From contig JACUUM010000030.1 of the NCBI GenBank assembly GCA_014859305.1, positions 1-32,917 of the forward strand: a stretch of DNA of 32,917 nt, read 5' to 3'. The first letter of the stretch is position 1. Each line of letters opens with the position of its first letter. This document shows positions 511 to 29,966 of the stretch, piece by piece. Source of the DNA: Coriobacteriia bacterium. Lineage in GTDB: Bacteria > Actinomycetota > Coriobacteriia > Anaerosomatales > Kmv31. A program made the translations under genes and the position numbers. Below the pieces are notes generated by a model. That model did no database searches. It was given only the letters and a program-made list of their open reading frames with translations, and was not told where the DNA came from.

Positions 511-4755
<4,245 letters not shown>

Positions 4756-4871
4756 AGGACCTGCCCTCGCGGTGGCGGGCCGCGGAGCGCCCTTCGCGAC
4801 CCGATCCGCCCCTTCCGGCGAACCCCACCGCGGCACTCCGGCCCGAGGGACGATACGCCCGGGCGCGTGGT

Positions 4872-4919
4872 TTGACAGCCACGAGGACGCTTTGGTAGAG
4901 TGCGACCTTGTGACTCTAG
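4872..4919 (+). promoter_or_regulatory. sigma70-type promoter of the str-S10-spc operon
   Basis: A perfect TTGACA -35 box (4872-4877) and a TAGAGT -10 box (4896-4901) are separated by 18 nt. Six nucleotides after the -10 box comes TTGTGACTCTAG (4908-4919), which recurs at the identical offset in the alpha-operon promoter and covers the expected start of transcription. The rpsL start is about 80 nt downstream. No further convincing promoter is seen until map ends, so this one may drive up to 27 genes. The box matches are direct; the start site is inferred. Confidence 0.85.
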
Positions 4920-4990: not shown

Positions 4991-5362
4991 TTGCCCACCA
5001 TCAACCAGCTGGTCAGGAATGGCCGAAAGCAGGTCGCCAAGAAGAGCGCGACCCCCGCGCTCAAAGGTAACCCGCAGAAGCGCGGCGTGTGCACGCGCGT
5101 GTACACGACCACCCCGAAGAAGCCGAACTCCGCGCTGCGCAAGGTGGCGCGCGTCCGGCTGACCAACCAGATCGAGGTAACGGCCTACATCCCGGGCATA
5201 GGCCACAACCTGCAGGAACACTCGATCGTCCTCGTTCGCGGCGGCCGCGTGAAGGACCTCCCCGGCGTTCGCTACAAGATCATCCGGGCGGCGCTGGACT
5301 GCGCCGGAGTGAGCGACCGCAACCAGGCCCGCTCGCGGTACGGGGTGAAGAAGGCCAAGTAG
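4991..5362 (+). CDS. rpsL: 30S ribosomal protein S12
   Basis: S12 sits at the decoding centre of the small subunit. The protein is 123 residues, the normal length, starting [12 protein letters not shown]. The TTG start is supported by AGGAGGG just upstream (4980-4986); the same frame stays open further 5' to 4772, but that extension has no S12 similarity and overlaps the promoter. The signature [13 protein letters not shown] and the loop [21 protein letters not shown] are intact, including the lysines where streptomycin-resistance changes usually occur, so the gene looks wild-type. It is the first gene after the promoter at 4872 and is followed by a strong stem-loop and then rpsG, the standard str-operon order. 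Confidence 0.98.
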
Positions 5363-20429: not shown

Positions 20430-20476
20430 TGGACGTCGCGGCGCGTGGTGGATATACTACTCATTTGTGACTCTAG
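20430..20476 (+). promoter_or_regulatory. sigma70-type promoter of the alpha operon
   Basis: TGGACG (20430-20435) and a strong TATACT -10 box (20453-20458) are 17 nt apart. Exactly 6 nt later comes TTGTGACTCTAG (20465-20476), the same 12 bases at the same offset as in the promoter before rpsL. The infA TTG start is only about 30 nt from the expected transcript start. A second shared stretch, GGCGCGTGGT, lies in the spacer here (20440-20449) and just upstream of the -35 box in the rpsL promoter (4862-4871). Confidence 0.8.
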
Positions 20477-20495: not shown

Positions 20496-20717
20496 TTGAG
20501 CAAGCGCGAAGATGCCATAGAGATGGAGGGCGTGGTCGTCGAGCCCCTCCCCAACGCGATGTTCCGCGTGGAGCTCGACAACGGTCATCGTGTGCTGGCC
20601 CACATCTCCGGTAAGATGCGCATGCACTACATCAGGATCCTCCCGGGCGACCGCGTCGTCGTAGAGCTGTCGCCGTATGACCTGTCCCGAGGCCGGATCA
20701 CGTACCGCTTCAAGTAG
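20496..20717 (+). CDS. infA: Translation initiation factor IF-1
   Basis: IF-1 is an OB-fold protein that occupies the 30S A site during initiation. The TTG start yields [14 protein letters not shown] and a 73-residue protein, the family length; GGGAG (20482-20486) lies 9 nt upstream. The frame is open far upstream inside map but without similarity. The motif [28 protein letters not shown] and the end [13 protein letters not shown] are diagnostic. It is the first gene of the alpha operon, right after the promoter, and is followed by a hairpin and rpmJ. Confidence 0.98.
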
Positions 20718-29638: not shown

Positions 29639-29721
29639 CTAGGCGACCGGACTGCCGCGGCGGCGGCGAGAGGAGGCAGCGAACGAGGCGGACGGATCGC
29701 CGAGACGGGACGAAGACGTGA

Positions 29722-29871
29722 AGCGCCAGGACTGGGAGACGGACGACTCCGCCCCAGTCGACGAGGAGAGGACCGATCGAAGGATTCGGCGGATGGTCCT
29801 CCGGCCCCGAGCCGGGGTCGTGACGGTGCCGACAAATCCGGGGGGCGACCCCCGGGACAAAGCGGCGCCGG
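29722..29871 (+). promoter_or_regulatory. glmS ribozyme (glucosamine-6-phosphate-activated self-cleaving RNA)
   Basis: This leader RNA cleaves itself when glucosamine-6-phosphate binds, which destabilises glmS mRNA and lowers GlmS synthesis. The sequence matches the known core: AGCGCCAGGACT at the 5' end, with cleavage expected between A29722 and G29723; GTCGACGAGG (29757-29766), whose G29760 aligns with the catalytic guanosine; and TTCGGCGGAT (29785-29794). Helices fold by hand: P1 GACTGGG/CCCAGTC (29730-29736, 29753-29759), P2 GAGGACC/GGTCCTC (29768-29774, 29795-29801), P2a CGAA/TTCG, P3 CCCCG/CGGGG (29805-29809, 29813-29817), P4 CGGTGCCG/CGGCGCCG (29824-29831, 29863-29870) with an A-rich internal loop, capped by CCGGGGG-GCGA-like loop and CCCCCGG. 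An open frame across this element is spurious. glmS starts about 95 nt downstream. Confidence 0.93.
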
Positions 29872-29966
29872 ACCGGCTCGTCGCGGCAGACGTCCCGAGC
29901 CGCAGCAGCGGCGCACCGCGCCGCCTCTCGTCATGAACGCTGCGACCTTTGCTCAGGAGGTCTGCG

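Follow-up and report, generated by a model that had tools for sequence, protein, structure and literature searches.

A conserved eight-base element at fixed spacing from the -10 box of rpoB, rpsL and infA promoters in an order of Coriobacteriia: a candidate initiator-like element

What does it mean that two promoters of ribosomal operons carry the same 12 nucleotides at the same place? The original prediction held that, within the window (the whole stretch of DNA analysed here, 32,917 nucleotides from a Coriobacteriia bacterium), an identical 12-mer stands 6 nt past the -10 box of both the rpsL and the infA promoters. A search of the window confirmed both copies of TTGTGACTCTAG on the + strand, at 4908-4919 and 20465-20476. 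The two promoters are laid out as follows.

4852-4870, + strand: GATACGCCCGGGCGCGTGG, directly 5' of the -35 box of rpsL; its conservation is confined to rpsL; includes most of GGCGCGTGGT
4872-4877, + strand: -35 box TTGACA of the rpsL promoter; conserved in relatives
4896-4901, + strand: -10 box TAGAGT of the rpsL promoter; kept in relatives
4902-4907, + strand: 6-nt discriminator GCGACC of rpsL, purine-poor near the start; 28 of 30 genomes have C as its second base
4908-4919, + strand: first 12-mer copy; conserved core TTGTGACT at 4908-4915, predicted start G at 4910
4991-5362, + strand: rpsL (S12, by Pfam), TTG start; heads the rpsL-rpsG-fusA unit
20430-20435, + strand: -35-like box TGGACG of the infA promoter
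20453-20458, + strand: -10 box TATACT of the infA promoter; kept in relatives
20459-20464, + strand: 6-nt discriminator ACTCAT of infA
20465-20476, + strand: second 12-mer copy; conserved core TTGTGACT at 20465-20472, predicted start G at 20467
20496-20717, + strand: infA (IF-1, by Pfam), TTG start; the unit runs on to rpsM, rpsD, rpoA and rplQ

Both promoters are of the housekeeping sigma-70/A type, with spacers within the 16-18 nt range (TTGACA-18-TAGAGT and TGGACG-17-TATACT) and -10 boxes retained in relatives.

Taken alone, the two copies inside the window are weak evidence; at least two matches to TTGTGACTCTAG at two or fewer mismatches were found in 16% of shuffles of the window. The whole 2.13 Mb assembly holds exactly two copies, both 6 nt 3' of a -10 box (rpsL and infA), and the single copy with one mismatch lies within a coding frame. 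The exact 12-mer can be ruled out as the conserved unit, as it is present in only 2 of 41 genomes, and the CTAG within it can be ruled out as a meaningful part, positions 15-18 after the -10 box being variable across relatives. The comparison indicates that the CTAG is local chance and that the 12-mer is how this genome spells a conserved core, TTGYGRCT. It is because this core is conserved in relatives that the sharing goes far beyond chance. Genome-wide statements in this work are based on pattern and profile searches.

Relatives were compared through the rpsL and infA upstream regions of other genomes of the order, 29 of each, and nearly all of these carry TTGYGRCTY or a near form at the position of the 12-mer. 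When 41 genomes were searched with the pattern TANNNT-N6-TTGYGRCTY, the matches fell mostly at rpsL, at infA and at a third site some 8 kb upstream of rpsL. This third site is the rpoB promoter, as was borne out by the rpoB upstream regions of relatives; in the present genome its copy reads TACCCT-atcatt-TTGCGACTTC and lies between rplL and rpoB. Altogether the element occurs in 89 of the 90 rpoB, rpsL and infA promoters of the order, with a gap to the -10 box of 6 in all 89, in a count that allowed gaps of 3-10 nt and tolerated one mismatch in the seven-base core. Numbered after the -10 box, T7, T8, G9, Y10, G11, R12, C13 and T14 are invariant or near-invariant, and the spacing is invariant to one base across three promoters and 16 families. 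As a control on spacing, we took 1496 TANNNT sites of these loci: 73 distinct sites are followed by TTGYGRCT at gap 6, and all other gaps from 0 to 15 together yield 8. In these alignments hardly any of the order's genomes examined lacks TTGYGRCT.

The distance from the element to the start codon is 44-49 nt at rpoB, 71-101 nt at rpsL and 31-41 nt at infA (overall 31-101). Since the gap to the -10 box is fixed while this distance varies, the element is anchored to the -10 box and not to translation; a translation signal was ruled out, given start-codon distances that differ by 70 nt. A minimal TTG-TGA open frame was likewise rejected, as the C variants of the motif contain no stop. The original prediction was therefore correct that the shared sequence is linked to promoters, spans the expected start and is common to growth-related operons. 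Conservation holds for the core and not for the exact 12-mer or the CTAG, and the prediction's set of two promoters, right as to rpsL and infA, was incomplete in that rpoB is a third member. The core is conserved upstream of rpsL and infA and is not common in non-promoter DNA, the two points on which that prediction had offered itself for refutation.

A second shared stretch, GGCGCGTGGT, at 4862-4871 and 20440-20449, had been suggested to be a possible coincidence, and this proved sound. The rpsL copy belongs to an element that relatives also keep; in the infA upstream regions of relatives we looked for conservation of GGCGCGTGGT and found none. Its sharing by both promoters is therefore chance, and as a shared element it was ruled out.

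Is the element restricted to these three promoters? A sequence-only profile run over the 41 genomes gave 98 matches, of which 89 lie at rpoB, rpsL or infA promoters, the best 64 among them. The profile was built from these promoters, so that their recovery is by construction, and the information lies in the fact that no other promoter joins them. Read in context, the nine remaining matches in the 41 genomes are weak, have no -10 box and are coding-like. The profile thus found no further promoter with the element in the 41 genomes, although a few could escape through incomplete MAGs and strict filters, and no promoter of rRNA or of other ribosomal proteins was among its matches. In one lineage (f7) the copies are weakened (TTGTGGTT, TTGCGATT). 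The three operons encode rpoB, rpoC and rpoA (the last in the infA unit) plus infA, fusA and ribosomal proteins.

We next consider where transcription would begin. In E. coli, transcription begins at one of positions 6-9 after the -10 box, with a mode at 7 and rarely beyond +2 or -1 of it; the start is a purine following a pyrimidine, and pyrimidine-rich discriminators move it to position 9 (PMC5730371). In 86 of 89 promoters the G at position 9 of the motif is the sole purine among positions 6-9, positions 6-8 being pyrimidines. From these rules, all of which derive from E. coli RNA polymerase, and from G9 as the only purine, a GTP start is predicted at G9. The pyrimidines at 6-8 would leave G9 as the sole good start, and the RNA would begin pppG-Y-G-R-C-U (GYGRCUU). 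Such a start would lie two bases past the usual position 7 and would need a scrunched open complex, and through it output would depend on GTP and on the early steps of escape. The infA promoters also have a conserved C-purine step at positions 4-5 (C in 28 of 30, A or G in 27 of 30), and position 5 could be an alternative start there.

Several known systems offer parallels. E. coli rrnB P1 starts nine bases after its -10 box, with a scrunched template in the open complex (PMC7822876). The promoters described here resemble it in the pyrimidine-rich sequence before the predicted start, in a predicted start at 9 and in serving growth-related genes. The second discriminator base of rrnB P1 (GCGCCACC) is C, as it is in 28 of 30 rpsL promoters; this nontemplate C at discriminator position 2 (C-7) is found in 20 of 30 infA and 5 of 29 rpoB promoters. 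Unlike in rrnB P1, the predicted start base is G rather than A and the conserved sequence extends past the start; the element here is at rpoB, rpsL and infA, and the profile matches include no rRNA promoter. Promoters of the rrnB P1 type are further marked by a short-lived open complex and by sensitivity to ppGpp/DksA. GTP-initiated stringent promoters of Firmicutes sense GTP and couple growth genes to it (PMC9304144), and an initiating GTP at growth genes is likewise predicted here. In those promoters, however, it is the start base that matters, whereas here there is an eight-base element at fixed spacing. A third parallel is with pausing. The elemental pause consensus ends in T-G-Y-G, which the TGYG of the motif fits, and within the element TGYG also fits the Y-1 G+1 part of the consensus. 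A YG step in the first bases (Y-1 G+1, as at the lac promoter) can pause initial transcription (PMC7057261). The YG of the motif is at positions 10-11 after the -10 box and its register in the RNA depends on the predicted start: with a G9 start the match falls at RNA length 2, unlike the initial pause element at 6, and only a start at position 5 would put it at RNA 6-7. A further difference from a pause element is that other lineages carry TTGCTG. Lastly, a short consensus that spans the start at a fixed distance from an upstream core element recalls the eukaryotic initiator (Inr), although the machinery is different and the analogy is one of layout only.

Given the start-site rules and the parallels with rrnB P1, GTP starts and YG pausing, our preferred reading is an initiator-like element that the initiating polymerase itself reads, and the gene content of the three operons (polymerase subunits, infA, fusA and ribosomal proteins) fits this. 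We consider it somewhat probable that TTGYGRCT, at positions 7-14, is an initiator-like core promoter element that determines, for growth-coupled genes, where transcription starts, with which nucleotide, and how the polymerase escapes. It would probably serve to keep the synthesis of polymerase and ribosomes in step with growth rate through GTP and ppGpp. The step from sequence to regulation is an inference, and so are the roles that had been proposed for the 12-mer: coordination, stringent control or promoter escape. Besides the C-purine step at infA, two observations sit poorly with the initiator-like element: the start-site rule alone leaves the conservation of YGRCT 3' of the G unexplained, and the absence of rRNA and other ribosomal protein promoters from the profile matches is odd for a general growth-rate sensor.

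The main rival is a separate regulator, a DNA-binding protein that would bind TTGYGRCT across the start and act as a common repressor or activator of the three operons, which we regard as unlikely. The motif is short, sharply bounded and has few genomic copies; some lineages keep a different conserved sequence at the site (TTGCTG, TCGCG, TCTGGTG), as a coevolving site would; and the element is at a greA promoter in two genomes of another class. Yet the TTGYGRCT consensus has no inverted or direct repeat and none of the symmetry that a palindromic operator would have, and the invariant spacing to the -10 box at three promoters in 16 families is sooner to be expected of a sequence read by the initiating polymerase than of a separate operator.

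Less likely than a separate regulator, and improbable in our estimation, is an element of the RNA 5' end, in which GYGRCUU would act in transcript stability, 5'-end processing or translation. The conserved bases are mostly 3' of the predicted start, and in several leaders the Shine-Dalgarno region offers a pairing partner for CUU. This pairing was ruled out because coevolution of motif and Shine-Dalgarno is no greater than in cross-species pairing. Against an RNA element there are also the conserved TT 5' of the predicted start, the differing predicted folds of the three leaders and the absence of any Rfam family near the sites; the leaders have neither a nearby Rfam match nor a common fold nor coevolution, as sought for a ribosomal-protein autoregulatory leader. 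A lead noticed by eye, in which UUGYGRCUUCA could pair with the conserved sequence UGAAGUCGUAA of the 16S decoding region, was dropped because rpoB copies and CTCTA variants lose the right half, and also because UU would fall 5' of the predicted start. That two unrelated start regions should be identical by chance, in favour of which stand there being only two exact copies and the unconserved CTAG end, is very improbable: it is already contradicted for the core, conserved in relatives at invariant spacing, and would hold for the last four bases only.

Returning to the initiator-like element, we tentatively put forward a broader proposal, which we hold to be possible but rather doubtful: a bacterial initiator, that is, a start-spanning core element read by polymerase that would mark RNA polymerase and translation operons and give control of self-synthesis through start choice, GTP use and early pausing. 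If this were true, the polymerase would control its own synthesis. Little conserved sequence is generally expected in the start region of a bacterial promoter; here an eight-base element lies across the predicted start, at fixed spacing, in three promoters of an entire order, and in looser form in other classes. It may offer a simple handle on polymerase and ribosome synthesis versus growth in a poorly studied lineage. We found no description of such an element in the literature searched, which was partial in coverage, with most subscription journals outside it.

Other orders of the class have looser forms at this position: TTGCTGCTT, TTGCTGTC, TCGCTGT and TTGCGCC at infA; TTGCGAC, TTGCGCC, TCGCGTC and TCGCGCC at rpsL; TTGCGAC, TTGCGATA, TTGCTGA and CTGCTG at rpoB. 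Some rpsL regions of families f87 and f19 are among the exceptions with no relaxed form. In other classes of the phylum the element is found at infA (f24, f69, f22, f23), rpsL (f24) and rpoB (f24, f33), and it is missing from the infA start regions compared in many further families of the phylum. The G at position 9 is also retained outside the order, by most of the rpoB, rpsL and infA promoters in other orders and in some other classes.

Other observations concern these start regions and their surroundings. At the same spacing, the infA start regions of f33 and f49 (L274, L275, L280) have another sequence in common, TCTGGTGY. Two related f33 genomes of another class (L211, L212) have TATAAT-agcaay-TTGTGACTCCGGG upstream of greA, a transcription-factor gene identified by eye from its translation. 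Two Olsenella records have a related rpsL start region. The stretch GATACGCCCGGGCGCGTGG (4852-4870), next to the rpsL -35 box on its 5' side, shows strong conservation across the order and class, and ACACGCCCG-N-CGCGGG sequences resembling it precede rpsL in many other actinobacteria. Many rpsL leaders (for example L027, L029, L033) have a strong predicted hairpin soon after the motif, its sequence variable between genomes, and rpoB leaders (for example L178, L190) end in a AAGGAGGAATCGCCTG-GTG whose near-invariance across families goes beyond a plain Shine-Dalgarno sequence. The C-terminus of rpoC (511-4755) contains, at 4561-4728, a domain matching the alpha-subunit CTD (Pfam RNA_pol_A_CTD, E 4e-13). 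By eye a similar beta' tail is present in most of the relatives read, and all six tested were above cut-off (6/6); other relatives have instead a tandem Cys/His zinc-finger-like beta' tail. A glmS ribozyme is found at 29711-29880 (Rfam RF00234, 92 bits).
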